From an uncultured Lachnospiraceae bacterium (GTDB lineage Bacteria > Bacillota > Clostridia > Lachnospirales > Lachnospiraceae), in contig CACWQH010000020.1 in assembly GCA_902762955.1 (NCBI GenBank), positions 1 through 56,279 of the forward strand: a DNA stretch of 56,279 bases. Reading direction: 5' to 3'. This document shows positions 12,528 to 34,384 of this stretch, in pieces (position 1 is the first letter of the stretch; each line of letters opens with the position of its first letter). Made by a program: the position numbers and the translations under genes. A model generated the notes under the pieces. It made no database searches. It saw only the letters and a program-made list of their open reading frames with translations, and had not been told where the DNA came from.

Positions 12528-12558
12528 TCAAAGAGATGGGTTTTTTCCGAGTAAAATC

Positions 12559-12783: not shown

Positions 12784-12796
12784 TTAACACCTTTTT

Positions 12797-13899: not shown

Positions 13900-13953
13900 A
13901 TGCGTATTTGCTCCGTATAAAATCAAAATATTCTTGCAATCAATTAATTATTT

Positions 13954-13986: not shown

Positions 13987-14017
13987 TATACTAAGTATAT
14001 TTAATTATCAAATTATA

Positions 14018-14774: not shown

Positions 14775-14784
14775 ATTGACCACC

Positions 14785-15974: not shown

Positions 15975-16034
15975 GAGAGTATAAAATAAAGTGTGTAAGT
16001 TACCGGTAACTTACACACTTTATTTTATACTCTC
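15975..16034. repeat. Perfect 60-bp palindrome
   Basis: Bases 15975-16004 are the exact reverse complement of 16005-16034, centred on ACCGGT, with no loop. On the minus strand TCTTTTT follows, so it could end transcription from the gene finishing at 16101. A perfect 30-bp arm without a spacer is far longer than a terminator needs and would readily form a cruciform. Confidence 0.9.
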
Positions 16035-18182: not shown

Positions 18183-18234
18183 ATTATTCCCCCAAAAAAC
18201 ACACGTAATTCTAATGCTATATCCTATAAAGGAA

Positions 18235-19431
18235 TTAACGCCTATAATAATCAACAATTTTTTTTACAGCTTTTATAACACTTTCGACATCTTCATTTGT
18301 CATCTTAGGATATAAAGGTATACTTATTACACTCTTATATATGGATTCTGCGTTCGGGCAAATTCCTTTCTCATATCCTAGATTTGCATAATAAGGAAAC
18401 CAATATGTAGGAATATAATGAATCTGACATCCAACATTCTCAGCATTTAATGCGTCAAAAAACTCTCGTCTGGTACATTTTAGTCTATCAAAATTCAATC
18501 GGATAATATATAAATGTCTGCATGTATCAGATTCCGGTATTTCATTTTGAACTATAATTTCCTGCATATTATTAAATGCTTCATTATAATATCTCACTAT
18601 CTCTTGACGCCTTTGCTTAAACTTATCCAATTTAGATAGCTGGCTGATTAAAAGACCTGCCTGAATATCTGTCATTCGGTAATTGTAACCAAGCATTATT
18701 TGTTCATAATACCATGGACCTTCGGGCGCACTTTCCGACATTTCTTCTATACTTCTCGTTATTCCATGTGCATGTGCTAACACAAGTTTCTTGTAATATT
18801 TTTCACTGTTAGTCTGTATAGCACCTCCTTCTCCACCTGTTATCGTTTTAACAGGATGAAATGAAAAACATGTCATATCGGCTAACGAACCTACCTTTTT
18901 TCCTTTATAAGCTGTTCCTATAGAATGCGCTGCATCTTCTATAAAAATAAGCCCATATTTATCACATATTTTCTTAATTGCATCAAAATCAACAGCCTGT
19001 CCTGTAAAATCTACCGCAATTATAGCCTTGGTTTTATCTGTAATATATGTTTCTATACTCTCAGGAGAAATATTATAAGTGTTAATATCAACATCAGCAA
19101 AAACAGGGATTGCTCCACAATAAAGAATACAATTTGCACTTGCCGCAAATGTAAGCGGTGTAGTTATTACCTCATCACCAGGTCCTATACCAGCAGCTAT
19201 GCATGCACAATGAAGAGCTGATGTACCACTATTCACGACTACGCTATATTTTGCCCCTGTATATTCAGATAATGCTGTTTCAAGTTCATTAATTTTAGGT
19301 CCACAGGTAAGAAAATTACTTCTTAAAACATCTACTACCGCTTCTATATCATCCTCATCAATCCATTGGCATCCATATCCTATTTTTGTATTTCTAACAG
19401 GTATTCCACCATTAATTGCAAGTCGATTCAT
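18235..19431 (-). CDS. pseC: UDP-4-amino-4,6-dideoxy-L-altrosamine transaminase
   Basis: PseC aminates the 4-keto sugar made by PseB, the second step to CMP-pseudaminic acid, using PLP and glutamate. It is a DegT/DnrJ/EryC1 aminotransferase of 398 residues with the PLP lysine K195 in [17 protein letters not shown]. Features I associate with PseC rather than legionaminate LegC are [21 protein letters not shown] and [20 protein letters not shown]. The start at 19431 follows GGAGGT; the ATG at 19443 lies before that site. The neighbouring pseI supports the assignment. Final substrate could only be settled biochemically. Confidence 0.9.
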
Positions 19432-19502
19432 ATTTACCTCCATTTTTTTACAGCATTTTTCACATAATATATTTTTAGATTATTATATTGTGCTATATAA
19501 TC

Positions 19503-20573
19503 TTAAACATCAATTATCTCCAACCCCTCAACCATACCAAACTCCATAGGCACACCTTTATGAATATCATAAGCTGCTGTTTTGCCAATAACATATTCAT
19601 AATAAATTGGGTGTAATCCGCATGAAGGTCGAATAGATTTTATATTTTCATCTGTAAAAACTTCACCCTTTTTTACTTCCTTAACTACATAAAGAGACCT
19701 CATATCCATCCTTTCTTTAATTTGTTTTGGTCTCAATTCAAAAGTACCCTTTCCTATTGCTTTTTCTACATTTCGAATTCTTTTAACCATCTCTACAAAC
19801 TCATCCATATTCATTGAAAAACCACTATCCGGACCACCATCTTCTCTACGAATTGTTACATGTTTTTCTATAACATTTGCACCTAATCCTATAGCACCGA
19901 TAGCTACCTCATCACCAAAAGAGTGATCTGACAACCCAACCAAGCAATCAAAAGTTTCCTTCATTAACGGAATAGTCTTTATATTCATATCTTCATATGG
20001 ACAAGGATATGCAGATGTGCATTTTAACAAAATAACATCTTCATTTCCCTCTTCTTTACATGCTTTGATTGCTCTTTCTATATCCGCAAGATAAGCAACT
20101 CCTGTGGAAATAATAACTGGCTTTCTTTTTTTTGCTATTTTTCGAATCATCGGGATATCATTAATCTCATATGATGCTATCTTATACGCCGGCATACCAA
20201 TATCATCTATAAAATCAACGGCCGTCAAGTCAAAAGGCGAAGAAAAACAACTAAGGCCTAAGCTGTTTGCATATTCCATCAGTTCCTTTTGCCACTCCCA
20301 CGGAGTAAAAGCCTTTTTATAAAGTGAATACAAATTTTCACCATCCCATAAACCTCCGTCAATCTGAAATTCCGGACGATTACTATCAATGGTTATAGTA
20401 TCTGCCGTATATGTCTGAAGTTTTATTGCATCTGTTCCTGAATCCTTGAGCATATATATGATTTCTTTAGCTCTATCAAAACTCATATTATGATTTCCTG
20501 ACATTTCCGCTATGATATATGTTGGCGATTCTTCACTGATTATTTTTTTATCGATTACTATTTTTTTTTTCAT
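19503..20573 (-). CDS. pseI: Pseudaminic acid synthase
   Basis: PseI condenses 2,4-diacetamido-2,4,6-trideoxy-L-altrose with phosphoenolpyruvate to pseudaminic acid. The 356-residue protein has an NeuB-type TIM barrel (YIIAEMSGNHNMSFDRAKEI, DAIKLQTYTADTITID, GLSDHSFGDEVAIGAIGLGA, then VIEKHVTI) and a C-terminal antifreeze-like SAF domain (SLYVVKEVKKGEVFTDENI). The GGLWDGENLYSLYKKA segment is typical of PseI rather than NeuB/LegI. GAAAGGA precedes the start. It sits between pseC and pseF on the same strand. All active-site segments look complete. Confidence 0.92.
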   Translation of the reverse strand: MKKKIVIDKKIISEESPTYIIAEMSGNHNMSFDRAKEIIYMLKDSGTDAIKLQTYTADTITIDSNRPEFQIDGGLWDGENLYSLYKKAFTPWEWQKELMEYANSLGLSCFSSPFDLTAVDFIDDIGMPAYKIASYEINDIPMIRKIAKKRKPVIISTGVAYLADIERAIKACKEEGNEDVILLKCTSAYPCPYEDMNIKTIPLMKETFDCLVGLSDHSFGDEVAIGAIGLGANVIEKHVTIRREDGGPDSGFSMNMDEFVEMVKRIRNVEKAIGKGTFELRPKQIKERMDMRSLYVVKEVKKGEVFTDENIKSIRPSCGLHPIYYEYVIGKTAAYDIHKGVPMEFGMVEGLEIIDV

Positions 20574-20605: not shown

Positions 20606-21307
20606 TTAATATATCTTTTTATGTTTCATCATATTTATATATTTTAATTCAGCCAATTCCCAATCTGTTTCATTATCTATATCTTGAACCTCCATCTCAG
20701 ATACAATATAAGGAATTCTTACCTTTTCCGGTATTCCATCCAGATAATGTTCAGGCTTCATCCAATAAAATTGTCCACAATCATGATAAATAGCTTCTAA
20801 ATCCTGAGATCTTGTAAATTCATATTCCGGATATTTGTATTCTAATATTCCATTATTTATCACAAAGGCTCTCTGTGGCGGAAAAGAAAACTTTACTACA
20901 AAATACACGGCATCCGCCTTCATTTCATCCATTATTTTTAATGAATCTTTTATTTTCTGAGCCGTTACAAATGGTGCTGTCGGATAAATGCAAGCCATCT
21001 GTGAAAAAATAATACCCCTTTTTTGATATTCCAGCAAAACCTCTTTCAAAACATCATCAGTTGTTGCAAAATCTCCGGATGTAAATTCATTTCTCATAAA
21101 TGGTACAGATGCTCCATATTTTCGGGCAATATCCGCAATTTCCTCACTATCAGTAGAAACCATAATTTCATCAAATAAATCCGATTCTATCGCCGCTTCA
21201 ATAGAATAGGCTATTATTGGTTTTCCGCAAAAATCTCTTATATTTTTTTTAGGTATTCTTTTACTGCCACCTCTTGCTGTAATTATTGCAATTCTATTTT
21301 TTTCCAT
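20606..21307 (-). CDS. pseF: Pseudaminic acid cytidylyltransferase
   Basis: PseF activates pseudaminic acid with CTP to CMP-pseudaminic acid, the donor for flagellin glycosylation. The 233-residue protein starts with the nucleotidyltransferase signature IAIITARGGSKRIPKKNIRD and continues with GKPIIAYSIEAAIES and DEIMVSTDSEEIADIA, as in the NeuA/PseF family. GAGGAA precedes the ATG. It lies directly between pseI and a DegT-like gene. NeuA-type enzymes share the fold; the pse neighbourhood makes PseF the best call. Confidence 0.9.
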   Translation of the reverse strand: MEKNRIAIITARGGSKRIPKKNIRDFCGKPIIAYSIEAAIESDLFDEIMVSTDSEEIADIARKYGASVPFMRNEFTSGDFATTDDVLKEVLLEYQKRGIIFSQMACIYPTAPFVTAQKIKDSLKIMDEMKADAVYFVVKFSFPPQRAFVINNGILEYKYPEYEFTRSQDLEAIYHDCGQFYWMKPEHYLDGIPEKVRIPYIVSEMEVQDIDNETDWELAELKYINMMKHKKIY

Positions 21308-21338: not shown

Positions 21339-22286
21339 TTAATATGGTATCATTATTTTTTTCAATATTTGAACAGTTTTCTTTGCCTGTTCCTCTGTAT
21401 AACAAAAATCATTAAACAGGTTTAGTATATGGTTATATAAAAAATTACAATTACTGGTTTCTTCGTCAGAAAAATATCCATTTCCAAGACTCATAAAATG
21501 ATTATTACAATATAAACCATTTTCAAACAATGCCTTTTTACATTCTATTGCATTCTTTAACAACAACTGATATCTCCATATATTATAATCATCCTCAAGT
21601 GACCCATTTAATCCACTATATATCTCATTAATTATTTTTTTATGTTTTATTGACCTCGGTAATTCTTTATTTAATTCATCCATATACTCATCCTGCGACA
21701 TACCCAAGTCAAACTTTATCCATTCAGCTTTCATAATTTTCCAATCAACCGGTCTAATATTACTATGACATTCTTTAATATGCTTATCAAATTCTGCGTC
21801 TGCTTTATCTGAAAATGGTTCATTTTGCTCTATGTAATTCCATTTCTCACCTATATAAGCAAAACCGCCTTTTCCAATATTCACTACTTTAGTATTGCCT
21901 GTAGAATATATAACTATATCAGCTACTGTTTTGGGAACACTTAAATCAGGTTCACACAAACAACGATCCTCAACAATTAAAATATTGGGATATTCATTTT
22001 TTATTTTGCATATCAATGTGTCCTGTTCAACATTTTTTCTTCCATATGTATGATTAAAATGTAACACTTTTATTTCAGCACTTAATTTTTTTCTTATTAT
22101 TTCTTCAGATATATCATACGTTTCTTTATCTATATCGCACAATTTTATTTTCAATCCGGCTTTCACATAAACAGCCGGAACTGTTTCACATATATTTGCT
22201 GGTAATAAAACTGTACCCTTAATCTCATTACTGACAAGCCAACTGTACATAATAGAAGATGCTCTAAATCCTATGACCATTCTCAT
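21339..22286 (-). CDS. DegT/DnrJ-like aminotransferase homologue, short form
   Basis: A 315-residue relative of DegT/DnrJ aminotransferases, about 60-80 residues shorter than usual. The fold pattern is visible: FRASSIMYSWLVSN, LLPANICETVPAVYVKAGLK, VLHFNHTYGR, IVEDRC (D107) and YSTGNTKVVNIGKGGFAYI with a lysine at 133 where the PLP lysine is expected. The usual N-terminal strand and several loops are reduced, so activity is uncertain. The gene fits tightly after pseG (three bases apart) and before pseF. It could be a second transaminase for the phosphonate or sugar branch, or a non-enzymatic homologue. Confidence 0.7.
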   Translation of the reverse strand: MRMVIGFRASSIMYSWLVSNEIKGTVLLPANICETVPAVYVKAGLKIKLCDIDKETYDISEEIIRKKLSAEIKVLHFNHTYGRKNVEQDTLICKIKNEYPNILIVEDRCLCEPDLSVPKTVADIVIYSTGNTKVVNIGKGGFAYIGEKWNYIEQNEPFSDKADAEFDKHIKECHSNIRPVDWKIMKAEWIKFDLGMSQDEYMDELNKELPRSIKHKKIINEIYSGLNGSLEDDYNIWRYQLLLKNAIECKKALFENGLYCNNHFMSLGNGYFSDEETSNCNFLYNHILNLFNDFCYTEEQAKKTVQILKKIMIPY

Positions 22287-22289: not shown

Positions 22290-23309
22290 CTAATCCTCCA
22301 TAAGTATATCTGCAATCCTCTTTGTTCCCTTTTTATCAAAATATCTTCTGCATTTATCGTGTTGCTCTTTTCTTACCTGAAATGATAATTCTTCAGCAAA
22401 TATTTCTTTTATTCTTTTTTCTTTAATACTATCAATATTATTAAGCTTATCAATAAAAGGTACAATATTTAACTCATCCATTGCAATACATTGCATATGG
22501 TGATTATCTACAAATTCAAAACTGATACAAGGAACTCCCATTGATAAAGCCTCATAAATCGTAGTAGATCCGGGAGCTATTACTAAGTCACTGTTTTTAT
22601 AAATTTTAGCCATATTTTGGCCCCAACTAATAACTTGAACATTCTCACGTTCAATAGATATATTTTTTATTTGTTTTTTATAAGCTTCATCATAAAAAAC
22701 TCCAATCAAAATATTAAAATTAATTTCACTATAAAATACTGATAGAATATCCATAATTTTAACAGAAATATGATATGGATCTGTACCACCCGTTGTTATT
22801 AAAACCTCTTTAACATTCTTTTGTAATGGTTTATTTGTTTCTAAAATAAATTCCTCTCTCAACGGAAAATACTCTACTCCAACATAAAGATTTCGGTCTG
22901 TATATTTTGACGGATAATACTTTTCTACAGTTGCCTCAATATTATGATTAATTACTATATCCGCTGGACAGTCAAATTCATATAAGTCATCCATATACAC
23001 AACTTTTGTATGTTTTTTAATTTCTAAAATATCATTTTCTTCAATCCTATATGTATCTATAAAAAGGCACTTGCAATCATTTTTTAATATGCATTCTACT
23101 ATTTCTTCACTATTCCATCCTTGCTTTCCAAATTTTTTTATTCGAAAATACAAATATTCATGCTCTTTTAAAAATGTATCATCAGCGTCACTTGATAAAA
23201 CGAAAAAAAAATCCTTCTTTCTTTTGTTCAACTCATTCGCAATACAAAAACATCTCATCAAATGGCCCATACCAATATTTGAATTTGCATCCACGCAAAA
23301 TCCTATCAT
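22290..23309 (-). CDS. pseG: UDP-2,4-diacetamido-2,4,6-trideoxy-L-altropyranose hydrolase
   Basis: PseG removes UDP from the diacetamido sugar to give the free sugar used by PseI. The 339-residue GT-B-like protein begins with the family start FCVDANSNIGMGHLMRC, including H16 at the position of the essential histidine, and has ITTGGTDPYHISVKIM and DLVIAPGSTTIYEALSMGVP (UDP-binding) plus ISFEFVDNHHMQ. GGGAG precedes the start. The length and motifs are normal; N- and C-terminal Rossmann halves are both present. It lies upstream of the DegT-like gene. Confidence 0.9.
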   Translation of the reverse strand: MIGFCVDANSNIGMGHLMRCFCIANELNKRKKDFFFVLSSDADDTFLKEHEYLYFRIKKFGKQGWNSEEIVECILKNDCKCLFIDTYRIEENDILEIKKHTKVVYMDDLYEFDCPADIVINHNIEATVEKYYPSKYTDRNLYVGVEYFPLREEFILETNKPLQKNVKEVLITTGGTDPYHISVKIMDILSVFYSEINFNILIGVFYDEAYKKQIKNISIERENVQVISWGQNMAKIYKNSDLVIAPGSTTIYEALSMGVPCISFEFVDNHHMQCIAMDELNIVPFIDKLNNIDSIKEKRIKEIFAEELSFQVRKEQHDKCRRYFDKKGTKRIADILMED

Positions 23310-23327: not shown

Positions 23328-24062
23328 CTATCTAATTTCTTTATTGAGTTCACTATACAAATAATTTTCTTTATCCAGTATAACATTTTTAGTCCATTCT
23401 GTACCATATCTAAATAACATATCTATAATGGACAGATTTGGTATAAAATCACCCTTACCCTGAACGTACTTCGGACACAGAAAATCCAAATACATATGAT
23501 CTAAGCCATTTGTATTAAACTTAGAAATATCTACATAATTCTGACTTCCTTTGTTAGAAAGATATACCGCACAAGACAACTCTTTTGTCATTTCAACCAA
23601 CAAATCATTACTCTTTCCAACGAAATTATAATTTGTATCATAGAAAATCTCTGTACTGCAACCCAATTCCTCCAATATCCAATTTGTTATGTATATATCT
23701 AAATTGTTTAATTTTTCCCATTCTTTTTTATATAGGTCTTCAAAAAAATCTATATATCTGTTAAAGAATTTTGTTTTTTTATAATTTAATTGAATTGAGG
23801 AAAAATGCTTCCTTCTCCAATCTATATTATTGTTAATTAACACATCCTTAATTTTTTGATCAAACTTTCCTTTTGATTTAACCGGAACTGTTAAAAATAT
23901 TTCCGTATCAACTCCCTTGATTCTGTTTCTGTTTTGCCAACTTTTCTTTTCAAATTGAACATTACTTACATATATAAATTTGTCAGACTGCATTATCTTT
24001 CCTATCAAACCCGGATATGGCATATAGTTAGGCTGGTGTCCACTAAGTATAATTTTACCCAT
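23328..24062 (-). CDS. WbqC-like family protein
   Basis: The 244-residue protein begins MGKIILSGHQPNYMPYPGLI and contains FIYVSNVQFEKKSWQNRNRI and GSQNYVDIS, the pattern of the WbqC-like family, which is found in O-antigen and exopolysaccharide gene clusters. Its reaction is not established; amide or acyl transfer to amino sugars has been suggested. AAAGGGAGA lies just upstream of 24062. A start at 24086, overlapping the methyltransferase stop by four bases, is possible. Located between pseG and a methyltransferase, it may act on the same nonulosonic acid or its substituent. Confidence 0.8.
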   Translation of the reverse strand: MGKIILSGHQPNYMPYPGLIGKIMQSDKFIYVSNVQFEKKSWQNRNRIKGVDTEIFLTVPVKSKGKFDQKIKDVLINNNIDWRRKHFSSIQLNYKKTKFFNRYIDFFEDLYKKEWEKLNNLDIYITNWILEELGCSTEIFYDTNYNFVGKSNDLLVEMTKELSCAVYLSNKGSQNYVDISKFNTNGLDHMYLDFLCPKYVQGKGDFIPNLSIIDMLFRYGTEWTKNVILDKENYLYSELNKEIR

Positions 24063-24082
24063 TTTTATTCTCCCTTTAGCGA

Positions 24083-24769
24083 TCATTTTGAGGCAGCAAT
24101 TATAAAATTATTATCCTCAAAGCTTTCATTATCATGTGTCTGTATAATGCGATCAATTGTTACACACTTCCATTCCTTAAAAAGATTCTTCAAAAAATCT
24201 TTAGTAAAAAAATACATATGCATTCCGTTTTCACTAAATGCAGCATGACTCTTATCATTATCATCTATTACCACTTCATTACTTTGACTATGTTCTATAT
24301 ATCTATAGTCTTCCGTGGAACGAACAACCACAAAAATCTTACCATCATTTTTTAATACTCTTTTCATCTCGGATACAGCTTCTTTTATCTCATCTTCATG
24401 TAGATAATATAGCACTCCATATGATATTACTCCATCAAAACTATTATCTTCAAACGGAAGACTTGTTACTGAACTACATTTTATATTATCTGTATAATCC
24501 GTAAATCCATTTAGATTGAGTAAATTTTTTGTATATTCCACACCTGTCTTAGAATAATCCACACCATACGGAACCAGATGTTCTTGCGCCATAAACATAA
24601 CATGTCTTCCGGCACCACATCCAGCATCTAATATTTTAGTCTTACCGTCTCTCATAAAATTATGGAATACAAACTGAACCACTTCTTCAGCTGGATATTT
24701 TGGATGATACCTGTCTTGTGTATGTAATTCAGTCCATTTATTCTGATTTATCTCCAATAATTCTATCAT
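24083..24769 (-). CDS. Class I SAM-dependent methyltransferase
   Basis: Residues 55-160 carry the SAM-binding Rossmann fold: TKILDAGCGAGRHVMFMAQE (motif I), NIKCSSVTSLPFEDNSFDGV (motif III region) and GKIFVVVRSTE. The family includes methyltransferases acting on glycans, lipids and small molecules, so the substrate cannot be read from sequence. The gene begins after AGGAG, and its stop overlaps a possible start of the WbqC-like gene. Placed between the phosphonate genes and pseG, it could methylate the final sugar or phosphonate ester. Length (228 residues) is normal. Confidence 0.85.
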   Translation of the reverse strand: MIELLEINQNKWTELHTQDRYHPKYPAEEVVQFVFHNFMRDGKTKILDAGCGAGRHVMFMAQEHLVPYGVDYSKTGVEYTKNLLNLNGFTDYTDNIKCSSVTSLPFEDNSFDGVISYGVLYYLHEDEIKEAVSEMKRVLKNDGKIFVVVRSTEDYRYIEHSQSNEVVIDDNDKSHAAFSENGMHMYFFTKDFLKNLFKEWKCVTIDRIIQTHDNESFEDNNFIIAASK

Positions 24770-24884: not shown

Positions 24885-26006
24885 TTAAAGAGATTCTATA
24901 TAACTCATAAAACGCATCTTATTTTCCAAAGCTGTTGTTGTCGGTCGACCAAGGTTGTCTCTTGACCCAATATTGCACTTTACCTCAATAAAACTCAATT
25001 CCCTTTTATTCTTAGAAGTTTCCAAAGCATAATCTAAATCATCAATATTATCAACACTTTTCGCATTTGGATATCCACACGCTTTTGCAATCGCAGCCAA
25101 ATTAATACTATTTGCTACAGTTGGCATACCACCCACTGTCTCATGAGCGCCATTATTGATAACAATATGTATCAAATTCTTTGGTCTATTTGCGCCAATA
25201 ACTGCCATAGAACCCATATGCATAAGAACTGATCCATCTCCATCAATACACCAAATTCGCTGTTTTTGCTTATTAAGTGCAATACCAAGCGCAATTGAAG
25301 AACTATGACCCATAGAGCCAACTGTTAAAAAATCATACTTGTGACTTAGTTTTTTAGTAGTCCGTATCTCAAACAGTTCTCTTGAAGCCTTTCCTGTTGT
25401 AGAAATAATCGGATCCTCTTCAGATGCTTTTACAATGTGTTCAATTATCTCCTCGCGAACCATTTTATTATCATTTTTATATTCAACTTTTGAATCATAT
25501 GTAAGTGCACCTTTACGAATAATAAAAGCCACATCAAGTCCATGCTTAAGCATTTCTTGAAATTCCTTCATTTTTCTTTCAACTTCATCATCCGTGGTTT
25601 CTTTTCCAATAATGAAATAATTTATTCCTAAAGTTTGAAGGATTTTTATTGTCACCTCACCTTGGTAAATATGCTGCGGTTCATCATAGGTTCCAGGTTC
25701 TCCACGCCATCCAATGATAAATATTGCAGGAATTGCATACACCTTATTGTTCATTAAGCTTACTACTGGGTTAATAATATTTCCTTCACCAGAATTCTGC
25801 AAATAAATTACAGGTATCTTCCCCGTTGCCAAATGATATCCTGCTGCTAATGCTGTACAATTTCCTTCATTAGCAGCAATAATATGATGATGCGAATCAA
25901 TCCCATAAGTATTCATTAAGTAATTACAAAGCGCCTTAAGTTGACTATCAGGAACACCAGTATAGAAATCTGAACCTATAATTTCAACCATTTTTTTTAC
26001 TTTCAT
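24885..26006 (-). CDS. aepY: Phosphonopyruvate decarboxylase
   Basis: This ThDP enzyme decarboxylates phosphonopyruvate to phosphonoacetaldehyde, the step that drives the unfavourable PEP mutase reaction. The 373-residue protein has TGVPDSQL, the ThDP-activating glutamate E47 (AANEGNC), the family signature GWRGEPGTYDEPQH (99-112) and the ThDP/metal motif GDGSVLMHMGS (256-266) with NNGAHE (284-289). Both PYR and PP domains are complete. The start at 26006 has GAGAGG upstream; ATG at codon 6 is an alternative. It follows the radical SAM gene on the same strand, though a separate extended -10 is visible upstream. Confidence 0.92.
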   Translation of the reverse strand: MKVKKMVEIIGSDFYTGVPDSQLKALCNYLMNTYGIDSHHHIIAANEGNCTALAAGYHLATGKIPVIYLQNSGEGNIINPVVSLMNNKVYAIPAIFIIGWRGEPGTYDEPQHIYQGEVTIKILQTLGINYFIIGKETTDDEVERKMKEFQEMLKHGLDVAFIIRKGALTYDSKVEYKNDNKMVREEIIEHIVKASEEDPIISTTGKASRELFEIRTTKKLSHKYDFLTVGSMGHSSSIALGIALNKQKQRIWCIDGDGSVLMHMGSMAVIGANRPKNLIHIVINNGAHETVGGMPTVANSINLAAIAKACGYPNAKSVDNIDDLDYALETSKNKRELSFIEVKCNIGSRDNLGRPTTTALENKMRFMSYIESL

Positions 26007-26054
26007 CTTATACTCTACCTCTCAGTTTTCCAAAACTACAAACCGCTATTATTA

Positions 26055-26063
26055 ATTATACCA
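26055..26063 (-). promoter_or_regulatory. Extended -10 promoter upstream of aepY
   Basis: On the minus strand TGGTATAAT (26063-26055) is an extended -10 with perfect TATAAT, about 50 bases before the aepY start. A weak -35-like TTGAAA is too close (13 bases) to pair with it normally. A CCTATA/TATAGG small hairpin lies at 26087-26102. Confidence 0.4.
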
Positions 26064-26120
26064 TCTTTACCACTTTCAAATATCCCTATACACACATATA
26101 GGCTATAAATCAACAATATT

Positions 26121-27686
26121 TCAATTTTTTATTTCTTCTACAGCTCTTTCAACTATCTTTTTCTGAATCATTGTGGACGAAACACCTTGTGTATAATCAG
26201 GCTCAATCACCTGACCTCCCCACTCTTTCATCGCATCTATTGCCTGTTTGCGTACAGTGGCAAGCGGTCCCTCTCTCCAATCCTTTCCATGAACCATAAA
26301 ATCCGCTTTAAGCTTGCGTAAATTAGGAATATAATCTCTTGTTTCCTGTGGAATAACCTCAGATACCCCTTTTAGATTCTCAACGACAATCTTTCTTTGT
26401 TCATATGGCATATACGGAATGCGCTTATAAGATGCAATTGCATCATCAGTAAAAAGTCCAACTATGACTTTACCATATTTTGATGCTTTTTTTATAATAT
26501 TAATATGTCCTGGATGTATAATATCGCATGCCATAGGAACGTAAACTGTAAGATCACACTTTTCTATACGTTCTTTAACCACACTATCATCAAATACATA
26601 TTCATTTTGAATTTCCGAACACTCAGCCATAATAGGTTTTGCAGGAGCTTTTGTATGATGAACACATCCATCGCAAAGAGTTCCCTCAAGCTTATCTTCC
26701 ATAAACCTACATCTCATATCCTTCATAACATCTCCATACCAACCATCATGGAGAGAAACCTTATTTAAATCTGCCACGATCAACATGTTTTCATAATCTG
26801 CATTTTCTATTGATAAATAACCTTCTTTTGTTACCGAAACTGCATCAAACGGAAGATTGCATTTTCTACGTTCCTCATTATCACATTCACATCTCAAATA
26901 ATCTTCTATTTCAGGCATATATCCACCTTGATTATATACGTATTTAAATACAATCTGATCAGCTAATCCATCAAACACTTCATAGTACTTATCCTTTAGA
27001 TTCTCCGTAAAACGAGTCAAAATACCTGTAACATAAATTTTATAGTTTTTTCCTGTTTCCTGTCTATATTGATTTAAATACTTTAAATGTTCCATAACCT
27101 TATCAAAGTCATCGTGACCATGAATAAATTCATATAGTTTACGTTGTGGTGCATTTATAGAAAACTTAATGCTATCAAGCCCCACATCAATAACAGCACG
27201 AATTTTTTCAGGAGTTGCCAATGAACCATTAGAAGTTAAATACACATATGTATATCCAATCTCTTTAGCCTTTGCAATATATTCAGGAAGTTCCGGAACA
27301 ATAAAAGGTTCTCCTGTAGCATAAAAGCCAACCTCTCTTGTTCCTAAATCATAGGCTTGTTGAAGGATATCAAATGCTTTTTTCTTATCCATCTTTCCAA
27401 CCCTTCGTTGCATCTTTTGATGCGCGCAAAAAATACAAGAATGATTACATGCATTTGAAATTTCCATTAAAAAATTTGAACGAGGAAACGGAGGCTCTAA
27501 ACTGTACAAATTATCTCGGTTAGCCTTTTTTAATCTTACTCTTTCCATAAGGTCGACATCTTTTCCCATTTTATCGTAATCATACTTTCTTATTGAGCAT
27601 GCTGCATTACCGCAATTCATACAATCCATATTCATATCACATGTAGATATTTTATCACATTCTATCATTTTTCTATCATCTACCAT
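26121..27686 (-). CDS. Radical SAM/SPASM protein fused to a C-terminal cytidylyltransferase
   Basis: A 521-residue fusion. The N-terminus has five cysteines in residues 10-30, then the radical SAM cluster C80-x3-C84-x2-C87 (NACNHSCIFCAHQK) and the barrel (FYATGEPF, YVYLTSNGS, DSIKFSINAP). About 285-350 is a SPASM-like cysteine-rich region (CNLPFDAVSVTKEGYLSIEN, then LCDGCVHH). From about 375 the C-terminus is a nucleotidyltransferase with HPGH (391-394) and GLFTDDAIASYKR, as in phosphonate- and glycerol-3-phosphate cytidylyltransferases. AAGGAGG precedes the start. It lies 12 bases from the PEP mutase gene. The radical reaction is unknown; the C-terminal part may activate a phosphonate as CMP-phosphonate. 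Confidence 0.85.
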   Translation of the reverse strand: MVDDRKMIECDKISTCDMNMDCMNCGNAACSIRKYDYDKMGKDVDLMERVRLKKANRDNLYSLEPPFPRSNFLMEISNACNHSCIFCAHQKMQRRVGKMDKKKAFDILQQAYDLGTREVGFYATGEPFIVPELPEYIAKAKEIGYTYVYLTSNGSLATPEKIRAVIDVGLDSIKFSINAPQRKLYEFIHGHDDFDKVMEHLKYLNQYRQETGKNYKIYVTGILTRFTENLKDKYYEVFDGLADQIVFKYVYNQGGYMPEIEDYLRCECDNEERRKCNLPFDAVSVTKEGYLSIENADYENMLIVADLNKVSLHDGWYGDVMKDMRCRFMEDKLEGTLCDGCVHHTKAPAKPIMAECSEIQNEYVFDDSVVKERIEKCDLTVYVPMACDIIHPGHINIIKKASKYGKVIVGLFTDDAIASYKRIPYMPYEQRKIVVENLKGVSEVIPQETRDYIPNLRKLKADFMVHGKDWREGPLATVRKQAIDAMKEWGGQVIEPDYTQGVSSTMIQKKIVERAVEEIKN

Positions 27687-27698
27687 TAATATACCTCC

Positions 27699-28997
27699 TT
27701 ATATCTCATCAATTAGAGTTATTATATCATTAATTGACATGAGACAATCATCAACCTCTTTTGCCCTATGATGTGTTAATATCGTTCTTGCAACATTCTC
27801 CATAGCCGGATATGCCGCTCTAAGAAGGTGATTTGCATATATTACAATATTTACTCCATGTTTGGACAGTTCTTCCTCAGTAATTGTGTTGAAACTTGTT
27901 GGCACAACTACAATGGGTGTTTTATCATCTTTTTTTCTAAACTCGTCACAAAAATTAATTATTTCATCAGGTCTTTTTTCTCTGCTATGAATCATAATCC
28001 CATCTGCTCCAGCTTTAATATAAGCATATGCCCTTTTTAAAGCATCATCCTCTCCTTTTTTTAGAATTAGACTTTCTATCCTTGCAATAATCATAAAATC
28101 ATCTGAAAGTTGTGAGCGTTTTCCTTCACTGATTTTATAGCAGAAATTTTCAATATTATCCTGTGTTTGAACAACTTCTGTTCCAAACAAACTATTTTTC
28201 TTTAACCCCGTTTTATCTTCTATAATTACAGCACTCACTCCCATTCGTTCAAGGGAACGAACCATATATACAAAATGTTCTGTAAGCCCTCCAGTATCCC
28301 CATCAAAAATAATAGGTTTTGTAGTAACCTCCATAACATCATTGATTGTACGAAAACGACTTGTCATATCGACTAACTCAATATCTGGTTTTCCTTTTTC
28401 CGTACTATCACATAGGCTGGAAATCCACATTGCATCAAACTGATCTATAGCCTCTCCTTCTGAAACTATTGTTTTTTCAGCAATCAATCCAGTCAAGCCA
28501 CTGTGAACTTCAATCGCTTTAACAATAGGGGTAAGCTTTAATAATTTTCTCAGCCTTGCTCTTCGCAATTCCGGCATCGCCATTTTTTCTCGCATTTGTT
28601 GATCGATTTTTTGTACAGTTTCATTCTTGGTATAAGGAACTTCTACTAATTTGCCACCAAATTCTTTTAATAAACCAACAATATTATTTCGTATAACTTG
28701 CAGTGGACCCGAACTCCAATTATCCCCATGGACAACATAATCTGGATGAATAGAAGCAATGACTTCATCATAAAGTATACTATTTTGGATAATGACATCT
28801 TTGATTCCTGGTATTTTTTTTACCATTTTTACACGTTCTTCCGTAGTTAAAATTGGAAATCGATTATATCTAATCATTTCTGAATCACATAACACTCCAA
28901 CTATTACGCTTCCCAGCTTTTTTGCCTTTTCTATAATATTCATATGTCCTTCATGAATAATATCCGTACAAAAACATGTATATACAATTTTACTCAT
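27699..28997 (-). CDS. aepX: Phosphoenolpyruvate mutase with N-terminal cytidylyltransferase domain
   Basis: PEP mutase makes the carbon-phosphorus bond by rearranging phosphoenolpyruvate to phosphonopyruvate. The mutase part begins near residue 145 and includes FDGDTGG (231-237) and the signature EDKTGLKKNSLF (260-271), which separates mutases from isocitrate-lyase relatives. In front is a nucleotidyltransferase domain with HEGH (15-18) and VVHGDNWSSGPL. Such N-terminal fusions are known in some phosphonate gene clusters. GGAGG precedes the start. Downstream are the radical SAM fusion and aepY, so the first two phosphonate steps are encoded together. The 432-residue length equals the sum of the two domains. 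Confidence 0.93.
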   Translation of the reverse strand: MSKIVYTCFCTDIIHEGHMNIIEKAKKLGSVIVGVLCDSEMIRYNRFPILTTEERVKMVKKIPGIKDVIIQNSILYDEVIASIHPDYVVHGDNWSSGPLQVIRNNIVGLLKEFGGKLVEVPYTKNETVQKIDQQMREKMAMPELRRARLRKLLKLTPIVKAIEVHSGLTGLIAEKTIVSEGEAIDQFDAMWISSLCDSTEKGKPDIELVDMTSRFRTINDVMEVTTKPIIFDGDTGGLTEHFVYMVRSLERMGVSAVIIEDKTGLKKNSLFGTEVVQTQDNIENFCYKISEGKRSQLSDDFMIIARIESLILKKGEDDALKRAYAYIKAGADGIMIHSREKRPDEIINFCDEFRKKDDKTPIVVVPTSFNTITEEELSKHGVNIVIYANHLLRAAYPAMENVARTILTHHRAKEVDDCLMSINDIITLIDEI

Positions 28998-29179
28998 TTA
29001 TCAAGCCTCCGATAATAATTATAATTTTTTCCTCATTACCAGCTTATTCTTTAAAGTTATCTGTCAAACTGATTTTTTATTCAAATATTTTTTAGTTTTT
29101 ACATCGCAATTTATTTTCAAACTTATAATTTGTCATAACTCACTTTATTTAAAAAAATTATAACAAAACTTACAAATTA

Positions 29180-30328
29180 TCATTTTATTCTATAGTTTTT
29201 CCATGGATGATTTTTACTAGTCTGTTTCTCTCTCGGTGGCAATTCCATATAATTGCCATATACACGTGTTAGCAAATCATGACATCCAATAGGAATTGAA
29301 AAAAGTTCATTTTCAAAGGGGACGAACAATGGGACATTAAACCAATCTTTCTTAAATATATGAATACCATCTTCAGTATGTCCAAATAAACTTCCTATAT
29401 ATTCATTATCTTTATTTTCATACTTATGTGAAAAATCAATACACTTATGTATATGAATAAGATTATTCTTTCCATCTTCCAATATTTTTTTCTTGAAATC
29501 ATTAACTAAAATATAACTATTATGCAAAAATTTTTCTGCTTCTTCTATAGTTTTACCTAAACCAACTAACGGAAAAATATCTACTCCTAAACCTGTTTTA
29601 ATTATAAACGGAAAATCTATTATCCTCGATACAGTTTTTTTATCAACTAACATAGGAGTTAAAAAAATATATCCTTCTGTAACTCCTGGTAATAACAATT
29701 CGTAATCGTCCTCAGGACTAATAGTATCATATAATTTTTTTAAATCTTTTTCCATTATAAAAACATCTATATCATTATCCCATGGAATGAAAGCTTTATG
29801 GCGAACTGCTCCTAATAATGAACCATACGCAAGATAATAATTAACGTTGCATTCTATACACTTTTCTTTCAAAAAAATAAGCGCATTTAACTGAACTTCT
29901 CTTTCTTCAGACCAACTAATCTCTGTCAACGATTCTTCATTATAGTTTGAAATCACCTCATGCGGATTAAAGAATCTTATAATATTTTTTTCTTCATCAT
30001 ACCCCATCTTTTTTAATTGATTAACCATTTCATTATAATAATTACCACCGATAAGTATAAGATAAGATTCATCAAATGGGATTAATTTTTCTTTTGGACT
30101 ACAAACCTGTACTTCCTCACGAACCAAATTCTTTTTACTCGGATTGTTATCTATAATTGCTTCGACAATAACATTTTTACTTCTTAAAATCTCTAAAGCA
30201 ACGTTACTTGCTTCAGTTATACCAAATAGCACCACTCTGTGATTATCAAACTTTTTTTCTTTATCTAATTCAACTATTTTGTCTCTTACTATTTCTATTA
30301 CGTTTTTTTCTATCCCATATTTTCTCAT
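29180..30328 (-). CDS. LicD-family transferase with N-terminal Rossmann-like domain
   Basis: Residues about 25-125 form a nucleotide-binding-like domain (HRVVLFGITEASNVALEIL, AIIDNNPS). The LicD domain follows, with AYGSLLGAVRH (167-177) and WDNDIDVFI (183-191) carrying the metal-binding acids. LicD enzymes move a phosphoalcohol from a CDP or CMP donor to a sugar. Placed between pseB and the phosphonate genes, it is the best candidate to attach a CMP-activated phosphonate to the glycan. That is inference. AAAGGGG precedes the start. A 180-base AT-rich gap separates it from aepX; no good promoter was found there. Confidence 0.85.
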   Translation of the reverse strand: MRKYGIEKNVIEIVRDKIVELDKEKKFDNHRVVLFGITEASNVALEILRSKNVIVEAIIDNNPSKKNLVREEVQVCSPKEKLIPFDESYLILIGGNYYNEMVNQLKKMGYDEEKNIIRFFNPHEVISNYNEESLTEISWSEEREVQLNALIFLKEKCIECNVNYYLAYGSLLGAVRHKAFIPWDNDIDVFIMEKDLKKLYDTISPEDDYELLLPGVTEGYIFLTPMLVDKKTVSRIIDFPFIIKTGLGVDIFPLVGLGKTIEEAEKFLHNSYILVNDFKKKILEDGKNNLIHIHKCIDFSHKYENKDNEYIGSLFGHTEDGIHIFKKDWFNVPLFVPFENELFSIPIGCHDLLTRVYGNYMELPPREKQTSKNHPWKNYRIK

Positions 30329-30343: not shown

Positions 30344-31348
30344 TTATGCCAAAAAACCCAACAATTTCAATTCTCTTCTTAAATCTTCAACATCAAACCA
30401 TTGATTATTGTTATCAGAAGTATAGCTAAATCCTTCTTCAACTTTTTTTCCACCAACCAAAATATCTTCTTCATTTGCCCAACTATAGTGAGGATAAATG
30501 ATAAAATGCTTGTCGTACTCATATGTTGACCACGAATCATCCTTTGTTACCATTATCTCATGAAGTTTTTCTCCTTCACGAATGCCAAATTCATCTATTT
30601 CACAATCAGACAACATCGCTTTTGCCAAATCTCCTATATGAAACGATGGTATCTTAGATATATATGTTTCTCCACCCTTTGATTCTTCAAGCGCCTTAAA
30701 CACAAGCTCAACACCTTGCTCAAGTGTTATCCAAAATCTAGTCATTCTCATATCAGTAACGCCAAGTGTTTTACCTCCATTATCTATTATCTTTTTCCAA
30801 ATAGGTATAACAGATCCTCTACTCCCCGCTACATTTCCATATCTTACAACAGAAAAAACAGTTTTATAATTTTCTCCTCTATATGCGTTCGCAGCTATAA
30901 ATAGTTTATCCGAAACAAGTTTTGTTCCACCATATAGATTAATCGGATTAACTGCTTTATCCGTCGATAGTGCAACAACTTTTTTTACACCACAATCAAG
31001 CGCTGCATCTATTACGTTTTGTGCGCCATGAATATTAGTCTTTATAGCTTCAAAAGGATTATACTCACATGTAGGAACCTGCTTCATTGCTGCAGCATGT
31101 ATAACATAGTCTACTCCGGCAAATGCCCTGTATAATCTATCCTTGTCTCTAACATCGCCTATAAAAAATCTAACTCTAGATATATCAACCATATTAGCAA
31201 ACTCTGTTTTCATTACACTTTGCTTATACTCATCTCTAGAATAAATAATCACTTTTTTAGGATTATACTTCTTAAAAAACATCTCTAAAAACTTTTTTCC
31301 AAATGAGCCTGTTCCACCTGTTATTAATATTGTTTTCCCATTAAGCAT
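30344..31348 (-). CDS. pseB: UDP-N-acetylglucosamine 4,6-dehydratase (inverting)
   Basis: PseB starts the pseudaminic acid pathway, converting UDP-GlcNAc to a UDP-4-keto-6-deoxy-L-IdoNAc. The 334-residue SDR protein has GGTGSFG at 11-17, the inverting-dehydratase motif AAAMKQVPTCEYNPFEAIKT and the YGGTKLVSDKLF catalytic region. The start at 31348 overlaps the Maf stop by eight bases, with AAGGGAGA upstream. A longer frame to 31375 would overlap Maf further. Separation from the other pse genes by the phosphonate block is unusual. FlaA1/CapD-type dehydratases share the fold but not the MKQVPT motif. Confidence 0.92.
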   Translation of the reverse strand: MLNGKTILITGGTGSFGKKFLEMFFKKYNPKKVIIYSRDEYKQSVMKTEFANMVDISRVRFFIGDVRDKDRLYRAFAGVDYVIHAAAMKQVPTCEYNPFEAIKTNIHGAQNVIDAALDCGVKKVVALSTDKAVNPINLYGGTKLVSDKLFIAANAYRGENYKTVFSVVRYGNVAGSRGSVIPIWKKIIDNGGKTLGVTDMRMTRFWITLEQGVELVFKALEESKGGETYISKIPSFHIGDLAKAMLSDCEIDEFGIREGEKLHEIMVTKDDSWSTYEYDKHFIIYPHYSWANEEDILVGGKKVEEGFSYTSDNNNQWFDVEDLRRELKLLGFLA

Positions 31349-33191
31349 TTTTTTCTCCCTTCTGTATGTCCTCATAGCATTCGTCTAACATTTTAATTAT
31401 TTCCTTTATACTCGCAGTCAAATCTTTATAATATTTCTCACTTTTACTATACATACGAATTGACTCCTTTATATGATCTTCTTCTTCAATATAATAATCT
31501 CTTAAAAACTCATAATTTGTTGTCGGCTCATATCCGACGATAAAAGACCGCTCATCCATATCAAGAAAATCTTCATCCAATTCATATATAAATTTATTGA
31601 TTTTTTTTAATCGTTCAACATTGTATTTTTTATTTAAAAGTAATTCTTTACCTTCTTTTGCAAGTTTATATCCCTTATGCATTTTTTCTTTCATATTCTG
31701 CATATTGGATTTCATATTTATTATTGTATCCGTTATTATTCTTTTATCATCACCCATAAATAATCGCTTAGGCTTGGATAAAAATTCATCAACATCAAAT
31801 TTATTTTTACAATACTTATCTATTGCTTCTCTCAATGTCATAATAGTAGTATTTCTCTTGAAAGCTCCTCCTTCTGTAGCATCAATTATTTCAACTATAT
31901 CTCTATGATTATATGCAATTTCCTCTATTGCTCTTATAAAAGTAAAATAATCTTTTTTTGTCAACACATCATTACCATATATATCTTTTACATAAAAAGT
32001 AGTTGCTTTTATTTCGTCTTTGTTTATTTCATCATCATCTGCATACTGTTTATTATTTGTAAATGATAAGTCTTGTCCAATAAGTATAATTTTTTTAAAT
32101 CCAAATAATATCATATTTACAAGCGCATCAATCGCTACTGAACCTCCGGCATATACCATCTTTATCTCACTACCGGCATCTCTGAACATATTATCCCATA
32201 TTATAGAATTCGACGAATAAAATATATAATTATTGGAATCAACAAAATTTAATACATCATAATTTGATGACATATCCACCATAAATGGTATATCATTAAT
32301 GCCTTCAACCTCAAAATGTTTTGTACTTTTAGCACAATCAACCGAAATTATCATATCTGGTTTTATTCCTCTAGACATTACTTTTGGTATAGCTGTATCA
32401 ACAGCAATAACAAATGCTTTATTATGTACTTCTTTTAACAAATCAAGATTTTTTTCTAAAGATGGACCAGCAGATACAACTATGGCTGGTATACCTTCCG
32501 GTGCTGTATCATATAATTCCACAGCACTTTTACACCCAACAAGATATTGCATATTATGTATTGAGTTATAACACATCTTATTACCAAACATCGACATTGT
32601 ATTTATCTCTATTTCCAAATTTTCATACTTCTCAAGTACCATTTTAAGAAACACCAAATACTCTTCATGAAAAATCCTTTCATAAATTGGAAGTGCAAAA
32701 TACTTATTTGTTTTAACATTATTAGGCAGAACCGTTACCTCCAAATAGCTGTAAAATTTCTCTCTATTAATTTCATCAACCACGATTCTTAATCGATTCG
32801 ATTCCAATAAATCACTAATATCTATATTCTGTAGCACTGTCATAAAAATTGATTTCTTTGGTTCGTAGACAATACAATTGCATTTCTCCGTATTACTTAA
32901 AAACTCTCTTACAGCATCTCCGTTACTAATACCAAACAAATAAAGAACTGACACATCTGGCATATCCACTTTATCTTGCATTATTTTTTTTGCTTCATTT
33001 TCTGAATTATATTTTGAGGAAAGATAAGTTTTTTGATTGCCTTTACAATACGCAAGTATTATCTCATCTTTTTTTGACTTTTCAACTAACGTCTCATTTT
33101 CATTCCATGAAAAATTTCCTTCATTAATTAAATCGTAAAGATCAATATTGTATTTTTTTAATGCATCGAGATTCTTTTTATAAATATCCAT
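31341..33191 (-). CDS. maf: Motility accessory factor, flagellin pseudaminic acid transferase
   Basis: The 616-residue protein contains the MAF/DUF115 domain: VVSAGPSLEKNLDLLKEV, AVDTAIPKVMSRGIKPDMII, SVDCAKSTKHF and MVYAGGSVAIDALVNMILFG, then IILIGQDLSF. In Campylobacter, Aeromonas and some Clostridia, Maf proteins add nonulosonic acids to flagellin. An N-terminal region (1-200) and a helical C-terminus (about 480-616) flank the domain. The start follows AGGAG. It lies between flagellin and pseB, directly linking the pse pathway to flagellin. Whether the modified sugar includes a phosphonate is unknown. Confidence 0.88.
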   Translation of the reverse strand: MDIYKKNLDALKKYNIDLYDLINEGNFSWNENETLVEKSKKDEIILAYCKGNQKTYLSSKYNSENEAKKIMQDKVDMPDVSVLYLFGISNGDAVREFLSNTEKCNCIVYEPKKSIFMTVLQNIDISDLLESNRLRIVVDEINREKFYSYLEVTVLPNNVKTNKYFALPIYERIFHEEYLVFLKMVLEKYENLEIEINTMSMFGNKMCYNSIHNMQYLVGCKSAVELYDTAPEGIPAIVVSAGPSLEKNLDLLKEVHNKAFVIAVDTAIPKVMSRGIKPDMIISVDCAKSTKHFEVEGINDIPFMVDMSSNYDVLNFVDSNNYIFYSSNSIIWDNMFRDAGSEIKMVYAGGSVAIDALVNMILFGFKKIILIGQDLSFTNNKQYADDDEINKDEIKATTFYVKDIYGNDVLTKKDYFTFIRAIEEIAYNHRDIVEIIDATEGGAFKRNTTIMTLREAIDKYCKNKFDVDEFLSKPKRLFMGDDKRIITDTIINMKSNMQNMKEKMHKGYKLAKEGKELLLNKKYNVERLKKINKFIYELDEDFLDMDERSFIVGYEPTTNYEFLRDYYIEEEDHIKESIRMYSKSEKYYKDLTASIKEIIKMLDECYEDIQKGEKNA

Positions 33192-33516: not shown

Positions 33517-33549
33517 AAACAAAATAAGCTGACCCGTAACCGAGTCAGC
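33517..33549 (-). terminator. Rho-independent terminator of the flagellin gene
   Basis: On the minus strand a nine-bp stem (GCTGACTCG 33549-33541 with CGGGTCAGC 33536-33528, one U-G wobble) with a four-base loop is followed by TTATTTTGTTT. It lies about 23 bases after the flagellin stop and would isolate its mRNA. Confidence 0.9.
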
Positions 33550-33571
33550 CATATTTTGTAGATTAAATTAA

Positions 33572-34384
33572 TTAACCTAATAATGAAAGTACACCCTGAG
33601 TAGACTGATTTGCCTGTGCAAGCATTGACTGTGCAGCCTGCTGGAGAATGTTATTCTTAGTGTAGTTAGTCATCTCTGAAGCCATATCAGTATCACGAAT
33701 CTGTGACTCAGCTGAAGTTAAGTTCTCACTATAGTTATTGAGATTGTTGATAGTGTACTCAAGTCTGTTCTGCTTAGCACCAAGTTCTGATCTTGCTGCT
33801 GAAACAGTCTTGATAGCTGCGCTTATCTTAGACATAGCATCTGATGCTGATCCATGAGAAGCCATTGAAAGGCTTGTAACGCCAAGCTTTGAAGCACTCA
33901 TAGTAGCAATAGTAATCGCCATATTCTCTTTTGCAACAGCACCAACCTGAAGATTCTTATCCTTGAAGTCACCATTCAAAAGCTTAGTGCCGTTGAATGC
34001 TGCCTTGTTAGAAATAGAATCAATCTCAGCTGTTAATTCAGTAATCTCATTCTGGATAGCTGTACGATCTTCAGTTGCGTTAACGTCGTTAGCTGCCTTA
34101 GTAGCAAGCTCACCCATTCTCTGAAGGATGCTATGAATCTCGTTCATGTTACCTTCTGCAGTCTGGATAAGTGATACACCATCTTCTGAGTTCTTAACAG
34201 CCTGGTTAATACCTCTGATCTGGTTTCTCATCTTCTCACTGATTGAAAGACCTGCTGCATCATCTGCTGCTCTGTTAACAGCGAATCCTGATGATAACTT
34301 CTCAGTTGCCTTAGCTACTGCCTTAACATTTGTTCCTAACATTCTGTTAGTGTTTACTGCCTGCATGTTGTGTTGTACTACCAT
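33572..34384 (-). CDS. fliC: Flagellin
   Basis: The 270-residue protein has the conserved D0/D1 termini: MVVQHNMQAVNTNRMLGTNV, then LSSGFAVNRAADDAAGLSIS at the N-terminus and SQIRDTDMASEMTNYTKNNI, then LQQAAQSMLAQANQSTQGVL at the C-terminus. There is no large variable domain, so this is a minimal flagellin. The centre is rich in Ser and Thr (TIATMSASKLGVTSLSMASH), plausible O-glycosylation sites for Maf, and lysines could be FliB targets. AAGGAGGA precedes the ATG. A SigD-type promoter and a structured leader with CsrA-like sites lie upstream. The gene has its own terminator. Confidence 0.97.
   Translation of the reverse strand: MVVQHNMQAVNTNRMLGTNVKAVAKATEKLSSGFAVNRAADDAAGLSISEKMRNQIRGINQAVKNSEDGVSLIQTAEGNMNEIHSILQRMGELATKAANDVNATEDRTAIQNEITELTAEIDSISNKAAFNGTKLLNGDFKDKNLQVGAVAKENMAITIATMSASKLGVTSLSMASHGSASDAMSKISAAIKTVSAARSELGAKQNRLEYTINNLNNYSENLTSAESQIRDTDMASEMTNYTKNNILQQAAQSMLAQANQSTQGVLSLLG

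Follow-up and report, generated by a model that had tools for sequence, protein, structure and literature searches.

A phosphonate module within a flagellin glycosylation island

The DNA analysed here, contig CACWQH010000020.1 of an uncultured Lachnospiraceae bacterium (GCA_902762955.1; genome completeness 89%), is a stretch of 56,279 nt, called the window below, in which genes assigned to phosphonate synthesis are embedded in a flagellin glycosylation locus. According to the original prediction, these genes and a licD gene lie between pseG-pseF-pseI-pseC on one side and pseB-maf-flagellin on the other, all on one strand; coordinates and family cut-offs bear this out, every named gene being found at its place on the minus strand. 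The phosphoenolpyruvate (PEP) mutase (27699..28997) scores 415.2 bits against TIGR02320 (cut-off 319.6), carries EDKTGLKKNS (pattern EDKxxxxxNS), and has the bifunctional architecture of Fom1, with an N-terminal cytidylyltransferase (CTase)-like domain (PF01467, aa 12-97, 53 bits) followed by PF13714 (aa 150-407). Downstream of it in the direction of transcription lie a fusion of a radical S-adenosylmethionine (SAM) domain and a CTase domain (26121..27686; PF04055 and PF01467) and a phosphonopyruvate decarboxylase (24885..26006; TIGR03297 457.5 bits, cut-off 312.5), while upstream of it lies a LicD-family transferase with an extra N-terminal domain (29180..30328; PF04991 109 bits, cut-off 22.6), which contains the stretch GSLLGAVRHKAFIPWDNDID.

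The surroundings are those of a pseudaminic acid (Pse) flagellin island, since PseB (30344..31375; TIGR03589 520 bits, cut-off 408), PseC (18235..19443; TIGR03588 481 bits, cut-off 424), PseF (20606..21307; TIGR03584 274 bits, cut-off 206), PseG (22290..23309; TIGR03590 161 bits, cut-off 154) and PseI (19503..20573; TIGR03586 473 bits, cut-off 340) all exceed their cut-offs, and a Maf-type flagellin glycosyltransferase (31341..33191; PF01973 128 bits, cut-off 34.6) is adjacent to a flagellin of 270 aa (33572..34384; PF00669 147 bits, PF00700 100 bits). Against the NF050051 PseD model this Maf reaches 95 bits only (cut-off 670). In order of transcription the run reads flaG, fliD, fliS, an open reading frame (ORF) with an FlgN match below cut-off, flagellin, a 111-aa ORF, maf, pseB, licD, PEP mutase, radical SAM-CTase, decarboxylase, a methyltransferase (24083..24769; PF08241 73 bits), a WbqC-like protein on the Pse side (23328..24086; PF08889 211 bits), pseG, a divergent DegT-like aminotransferase ORF (21339..22286; PF01041 14.9 bits, below the cut-off of 19.8), pseF, pseI, pseC and, as the last gene, a hexapeptide repeat and GT-D glycosyltransferase protein (16101..18257; PF08759 269 bits; PF00132 26 bits, just under cut-off).

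No GNAT acetyltransferase that would correspond to PseH is found among the Pfam matches of the run; the hexapeptide repeat of the last gene could stand in for it. The DegT-like ORF between pseF and pseG has, by eye, a plausible active-site lysine region. The methyltransferase was considered as a phosphonate enzyme and rejected, as it accompanies wbqC and the Pse genes in three genomes negative for pepM, the PEP mutase gene (G795, G047, G042), and it is probably a Pse tailoring enzyme. A terminator-like hairpin lies just 3' of flagellin (33527..33550, minus strand; terminator scan and reading of the sequence), and a terminator-like stem of 20 pairs lies 3' of the last gene (15981..16028, minus strand), though the scan of the region, with 7 sites versus 5.6 expected in shuffles, is weak evidence alone. 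The G+C content is 29-34% in the 2-kb windows between 10.5 and 33.5 kb, and 35-44% in those outside.

Exchange of the island among same-genus genomes

A genome of the same genus, G180, gives no PEP mutase match. Its flagellar genes match those of the window at 49-79% (flagellin at 79%), its maf at 38% and its yrdC, on the far side, at 65%, while only three of the window's genes between 2114 and 30328 are matched in 72 kb of G180 (pseC 30%, pseI 37%, pseF 38%). Between these two genomes, the cassette within fixed flanks is exchanged, that of G180 being a different nonulosonate cassette. Within the same exchanged stretch of the window we also observed a second LicD protein (3861-6293, 810 aa) and a UDP-galactopyranose mutase (8543-9676), and the island edge (10733-15726) encodes two helix-turn-helix proteins, an IrrE-like peptidase and a RelA/SpoT-domain protein.

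Seven of 22 further same-genus genomes carry pepM, these 22 being the genomes returned by a search with the methyltransferase, which favours Pse islands and covers part of the genus. One of them, G823, presents on a single contig flgL, fliW, flaG, fliD, fliS, flagellin (85%), maf and pse genes, and then the phosphonate trio in the order radical SAM-CTase, PEP mutase and decarboxylase (69, 69 and 68% identity to the window), all on one strand except for one glycosyltransferase-like gene on the opposite strand before the module. A possible location of pepM within an island in another genome of the genus, G805, was dropped from consideration, as ORFs that look topoisomerase-like by eye separate its yrdC-like gene from pepM.

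Linkage of pepM to flagellar and pseudaminic acid genes

PEP mutase was detected in 46 of 397 genomes of the family (E 1e-40), and PseI, flagellin and Maf were searched in these 46 and in G180, with a flagellin model that also catches FlgL-like proteins. Compared with a null of uniform placement, which ignores the general clustering of glycan genes, five of the 46 genomes have PseI above cut-off no further than 10 kb from pepM (0.12 expected), five have Maf within 20 kb (0.31 expected) and seven have flagellin within 20 kb (1.04 expected). Any of the three markers occurs within 20 kb in nine genomes, versus 1.39 expected (P 5.8e-6), a count that includes the window's own genome; when this is left out, eight remain versus 1.36 (P 4e-5). 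The neighbourhood comparison of PEP mutase with maf and pseB that had been proposed along with the original prediction, with absence of linkage as the outcome that would count against it, thus gives recurring linkage in the family.

The linked loci differ in the enzyme that accompanies pepM: three are of the 2-aminoethylphosphonate (2-AEP, or AEP) type (G157, G135, G290), three of the iron-dependent alcohol dehydrogenase (Fe-ADH) type (G188, G139, G022), and the window is of the radical SAM type, while G177 and G315 have neither enzyme within 8 kb. Further cases of proximity were seen at locus L040, where a flagellin gene follows about 1.1 kb after the decarboxylase, and at L059, where flagellin pieces lie about 2.7 kb before pepM. 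As a separate observation, a protein of about 690 aa is encoded near maf or nonulosonate genes (L086:4923-7001, L067:6106-8136, L113:3909-5903); it gives a match to the sulfatase fold PF00884 (tested for L086) and a tetratricopeptide repeat match below cut-off, and pepM accompanies it in G157 and G188 but not in G180.

The LicD transferase and the acceptor

Relatives of the two-domain LicD protein were found in 11 of the 397 genomes (E 1e-35), and in nine of them, G017 and G187 being the exceptions, the fetched stretch also holds Pse, Maf or flagellin genes. Six of the 11 give no PEP mutase match, and LicD was therefore rejected as a phosphonate-specific enzyme. Even so, five of these six have their LicD relative in a Pse/Maf/flagellin locus, and in one of the six, G125, licD is adjacent to a CTase-like gene (31%). 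The protein looks like a flagellin-island enzyme accepting whichever cytidylyl-activated group the island provides. Its distribution thus supports flagellin as acceptor and, at the same time, weakens the claim that LicD implies a phosphonate.

Module types and the nature of the phosphonate

We compared 79 pepM loci, of which 34 encode the radical SAM protein no more than 8 kb from pepM and the other 45 do not; the counts include the near-duplicates L047/L107 and L041/L053 and some loci cut by contig ends. An AEP transaminase probe matched near pepM in none of the 34 radical-SAM loci versus 17 of the 45 others, and the four transaminases scanned all pass the AEP aminotransferase model TIGR03301. 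Fe-ADH lies near pepM in 4/34 radical-SAM loci, all from Synergistaceae or Synergistales records, versus 18/45 others; two of these dehydrogenases were scanned and passed no NCBIfam cut-off, the closest being Phn_Fe-ADH with 145 of 424 bits, and from their gene position we infer that the Fe-ADH loci are of the 2-hydroxyethylphosphonate (HEP) type. PntC is present in 15 of the 17 transaminase loci and a LicC-like domain in 17 of the 18 Fe-ADH loci; L071 has both the transaminase and Fe-ADH. A PF12804-like probe found no match in 25 of the 34 radical-SAM loci versus 4 of the 45 others. From these counts, the radical SAM protein occupies the place that the aldehyde-processing enzyme and the CTase have elsewhere.

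In a PEP mutase tree of 70 rows, which leaves out L079, L107 and loci lacking a usable ORF, 11 changes of module-type label are needed, at least six of them forced by well-supported branches, and repeated replacement of the cassette seems to have taken place. The clade to which the window's PEP mutase belongs contains 14 of the 15 AEP-type rows, along with 10 radical-SAM rows. We also noted a fusion of a YidC-like domain (PF02096) and a CDP-glycerol glycerophosphotransferase domain (PF04464; L082:11734-13632), which lies near PEP mutase in 16 loci (nine AEP-type, six radical-SAM and one Fe-ADH) and is a candidate membrane transferase for phosphonates activated by cytidine monophosphate (CMP).

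In the window, the combination of AEP transaminase and PntC that marks Pnt/AEP tailoring clusters is lacking: no gene of the run is assigned to PF12804, which gives only a sub-cut-off match within PseF, and the best match to the transaminase model TIGR02326 (PhnW) in the genome, 89% complete, reaches 37 bits. Scores were compared here because the true AEP transaminases of relatives, at 270-290 bits, also miss the TIGR02326 cut-off, though they pass TIGR03301. Three Fe-ADH genes above cut-off are present elsewhere in the genome.

The two cytidylyltransferase domains

The N-terminal domain of the PEP mutase (28584..28997, minus strand), which the first description of the locus had missed, matches PDB 5x3d (E 2.8e-30, 37% identity), an entry titled phosphoenolpyruvate phosphomutase that we take to be the CTase domain of Fom1. 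The HxGH, Lys and SST motifs have roles in related cytidylyltransferases. The domain retains HEGH, while RYNR stands in place of SYKR of the Fom1 fragment and NETVQKI in place of GISSTRL, such that the Lys is replaced by Asn and SST is gone. Based on this loss of motifs alone, we rejected it as a working enzyme, and it is probably inactive. The C-terminal domain of the radical SAM fusion (26151..26546, minus strand) matches the same entry with E 2.7e-46 and 54% identity, and has all the motifs (HPGH, ASYKR and GVSSTMI); it is predicted to be an intact Fom1-like HEP cytidylyltransferase.

The same asymmetry extends to the other loci with usable ORFs, comprising 68 PEP mutases (the window and L033-L112) and 29 CTases on the radical SAM side: the complete motif set is present in 1/68 of the former versus 29/29 of the latter (HPGH, Lys and SS[ST]), whether fused (22) or encoded as a separate ORF in the same cluster (7). 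Among the PEP mutases, SST is missing in all except L045, with a partial GIST in L048; full HPGH is missing in 67, HxGH being kept by nearly all, and the Lys is kept in 35, none of AEP type. A PF12804-like nucleotidyltransferase lies near pepM in 41 of the 45 loci without a radical SAM protein. This suggests that in this sample the CTase domain fused to a PEP mutase is mostly not the working enzyme, a point that matters for the interpretation of phosphonate clusters, and published numbers of active fused CTases may be overestimates. For the window, the absence of a detected AEP transaminase together with the Fom1-like CTase favours CMP-HEP, or a radical-SAM derivative of it, over CMP-AEP, and taken with the probably inactive second CTase domain it points away from 2-AEP.

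The radical SAM-cytidylyltransferase fusion

The radical SAM half of the fusion carries the CX3CX2C motif (C80, C84, C87) and four further cysteines (C266, C276, C338, C341), all invariant in 28 aligned rows including the window; the latter four are candidates for the auxiliary-cluster cysteines of a SPASM/twitch radical SAM protein. Its relatives among solved structures are only distant (e.g., BtrN, PqqE). The protein was tried as a member of Fom3, the cobalamin-dependent radical SAM methyltransferase, and rejected, as no B12-binding domain is matched in it (Pfam at E 0.001 gives PF04055 and PF01467 only). The fusion is rare: at E 1e-80, four of the 397 genomes of the family have it, each of them pepM-positive, and in a phylum sample of 398 genomes the window's own was the only one. 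In all, 32 close relatives of the radical SAM protein were retrieved from the genome collection, with pepM in the fetched stretch (within 8 kb) for 31 of them, and their record titles name Clostridia, Synergistaceae, Desulfovibrio, Bacteroidaceae, Gastranaerophilales and others.

The fusions of the window and L033 bear a Cys-rich N-terminal extension (the first 40 residues in the window's protein) that was not seen in the other aligned rows. Two loci of radical-SAM type (L040:86-3164, L109:11591-16780) contain by eye ATP-grasp and short-chain dehydrogenase/reductase ORFs, plus another radical SAM gene that is distantly related (23-25%); L061 also has the ATP-grasp and dehydrogenase/reductase ORFs, perhaps reflecting further phosphonate chemistry.

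Relation to known systems

The original prediction knew of no flagellin with a phosphonate, a claim overtaken by a report published in 2022 of 2-AEP on FliC of Clostridioides difficile, in the type A flagellin glycan (Hensbergen 2022, PMC8861647); there, the origin of the 2-AEP is given as unknown and the organism is pepM-negative. A 2025 review likewise mentions flagellin glycans with phosphonate moieties (PMC12645811). Phosphonate on flagellin is therefore not new; new are the presence in the island of a PEP mutase module of its own and the fusion of radical SAM and Fom1-like domains. In the 2023 model of the C. difficile type A glycan, CDP-threonine comes from a LicC-like enzyme, with a TagF-like enzyme as the transferase (PMC10714395), a precedent for the logic of passing a cytidylyl-activated group to a flagellin sugar. 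The window would share this logic and, as proposed below, the phosphonate on the flagellin glycan, but it differs from C. difficile in having a pepM module in the island, and pseudaminic acid and LicD in place of N-acetylglucosamine and the TagF-like enzyme.

Pnt clusters, in which PEP mutase-CTase fusions, triple fusions and LicD are described (Rice 2019, PMC6697681), resemble the window in the fusion of PEP mutase to PF01467, the decarboxylase, the LicD-type transferase and activation by CMP, whereas the window's run has the radical SAM-CTase fusion instead of a PF12804 PntC or an AEP transaminase; neither "flagell*" nor "radical SAM" occurs in that paper. The fosfomycin enzymes Fom1, Fom2 and Fom3 (Fom1/Fom3 chemistry: PMC8158854) offer a second parallel, with a PEP mutase bearing a CTase domain, a decarboxylase, and a radical SAM enzyme linked to a phosphonate in cytidylylated form. 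Unlike in that pathway, it is the radical SAM protein of the window, instead of the PEP mutase, that bears the intact CTase, a cobalamin-binding domain is not matched, no epoxidase is found among the Pfam matches of the run, and the surroundings are Pse and flagellin genes. Finally, phosphonoglycoproteins have been proposed in Prochlorococcus and SAR11 (Acker 2022, PMC8931226), where pepM also lies beside protein O-glycosylation genes and phosphonate is found in the protein fraction, but that route is marine, uses an O-oligosaccharyltransferase and does not involve flagellin. The string "phosphon*" does not occur in two surveys of flagellin glycosylation islands (PMC5109656, PMC4875605), and among the matches listed from the open-access literature no link between pepM and flagellin genes and no radical SAM-CTase phosphonate enzyme is reported.

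Proposed pathway and alternative readings

Taken from the gene content, the flagellin glycosylation operon would have its own supply of activated phosphonate, with CMP-HEP or a radical-SAM derivative of it being put on the flagellin glycan by LicD, a reading that we consider reasonably probable; the product of the locus is thus probably a flagellin glycan that bears a phosphonate. By family assignment, PEP mutase would form phosphonopyruvate and the decarboxylase phosphonoacetaldehyde, which a dehydrogenase with its gene elsewhere would most likely reduce to HEP. By homology, CMP-HEP would be the product of the Fom1-like domain of the radical SAM protein, and the fused radical SAM domain may alter the phosphonate before or after activation, in analogy to Fom3, which acts on the CMP form in fosfomycin synthesis, but in a cobalamin-free manner. 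Based on gene position and on its relatives in flagellin islands, LicD would then take the group off CMP and attach it to the glycan with pseudaminic acid that is placed on flagellin by Maf. Of the earlier idea that either the nonulosonic glycan of flagellin or a surface polymer bears a phosphonate, the dedicated module in the island and its linkage hold up, the flagellin glycan being a probable acceptor and another polymer a possible one. More tentatively, the fusion may found an O2-independent, cobalamin-free branch of phosphonate synthesis in gut anaerobes, in which a two-carbon phosphonate would be cytidylylated and remodelled by radical chemistry to an undescribed phosphonate, with the flagellin glycan as its final place. 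This phosphonate might, for instance, be a shortened one, e.g., hydroxymethyl- or methylphosphonate; the enzymes known to us for these two compounds work only with oxygen.

Several observations weigh against a phosphonate of this kind on flagellin. The linkage test used a null blind to the clustering of glycan genes, and flagellin alone within 10 kb of pepM gives a smaller excess (3 versus 0.57 expected, P 0.019). The G823 module begins about 21 kb after flagellin, beyond the Pse genes, it is directly followed by non-Pse ORFs, which leaves the acceptor ambiguous there, and LicD was not detected in the fetched stretches. Six of the 11 genomes with a LicD relative are without a PEP mutase match, and G180, which lacks PEP mutase, has in the exchanged stretch a gene 34% like PntC. 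As for the chemistry, the transaminase could be missing from an assembly that is incomplete, and the retained Lys of 35 PEP mutases and the partial GIST of L048 speak against a general inactivity of the fused domains, the step from loss of SST to inactivity being made by homology only.

The phosphonate could be real and yet decorate another surface polymer, capsular or teichoic-like, with the genes being co-located because glycan genes gather there. We hold this possible but doubtful: 37 of the 46 pepM genomes have no PseI, Maf or flagellin link within 20 kb (some of them on short contigs), and the ORFs after the G823 module and the second LicD and UDP-galactopyranose mutase further along the window fit such a polymer, but the window's module lies between pseB-licD and pseG and not at an edge, G139 shows the same inside position, and linkage exceeds the uniform null. 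With either acceptor, the product might also be ordinary 2-AEP, made with a transaminase encoded elsewhere or with the DegT-like ORF, the radical SAM domain having a side role. The AEP-rich clade of the window's PEP mutase, the presence of that ORF and the identity of the phosphonate reported on flagellin (PMC8861647) are in line with this, but we regard it as unlikely, given that no radical-SAM locus has an AEP transaminase near pepM, that the best PhnW-model match in the genome falls so far below those of relatives, and that the CTase is of the Fom1 (HEP) type and not of the PF12804 type of PntC.

It is similarly improbable, in our view, that the radical SAM domain acts on a target other than the phosphonate, e.g., the acceptor sugar, and is merely coupled by fusion to the CMP donor. 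Radical SAM enzymes acting on sugars exist, and fusion is not obligatory, given that 7 of the 29 loci in which a CTase ORF is usable encode the CTase separately; however, the radical SAM protein tracks pepM across phyla and across hosts with differing glycan genes, and occupies the position that the phosphonoacetaldehyde enzyme has in other loci. A free small-molecule phosphonate as product seems very improbable: related PEP mutase and decarboxylase enzymes do make fosfomycin precursors (PMC6697681, PMC8158854), but no resistance or export family is found among the Pfam matches of the run 16101-37962, and LicD and Pse genes lie on all sides.

Implications

The radical SAM-cytidylyltransferases constitute a family that can now be named, with 32 loci in several phyla and a reaction to be assigned. 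The locus illustrates how the source of a phosphonate can be contained within a flagellin island, a point that bears on C. difficile, where 2-AEP is found on flagellin although the PEP mutase gene is absent. The idea that gut anaerobes coat their flagella with carbon-phosphorus groups thereby becomes testable.

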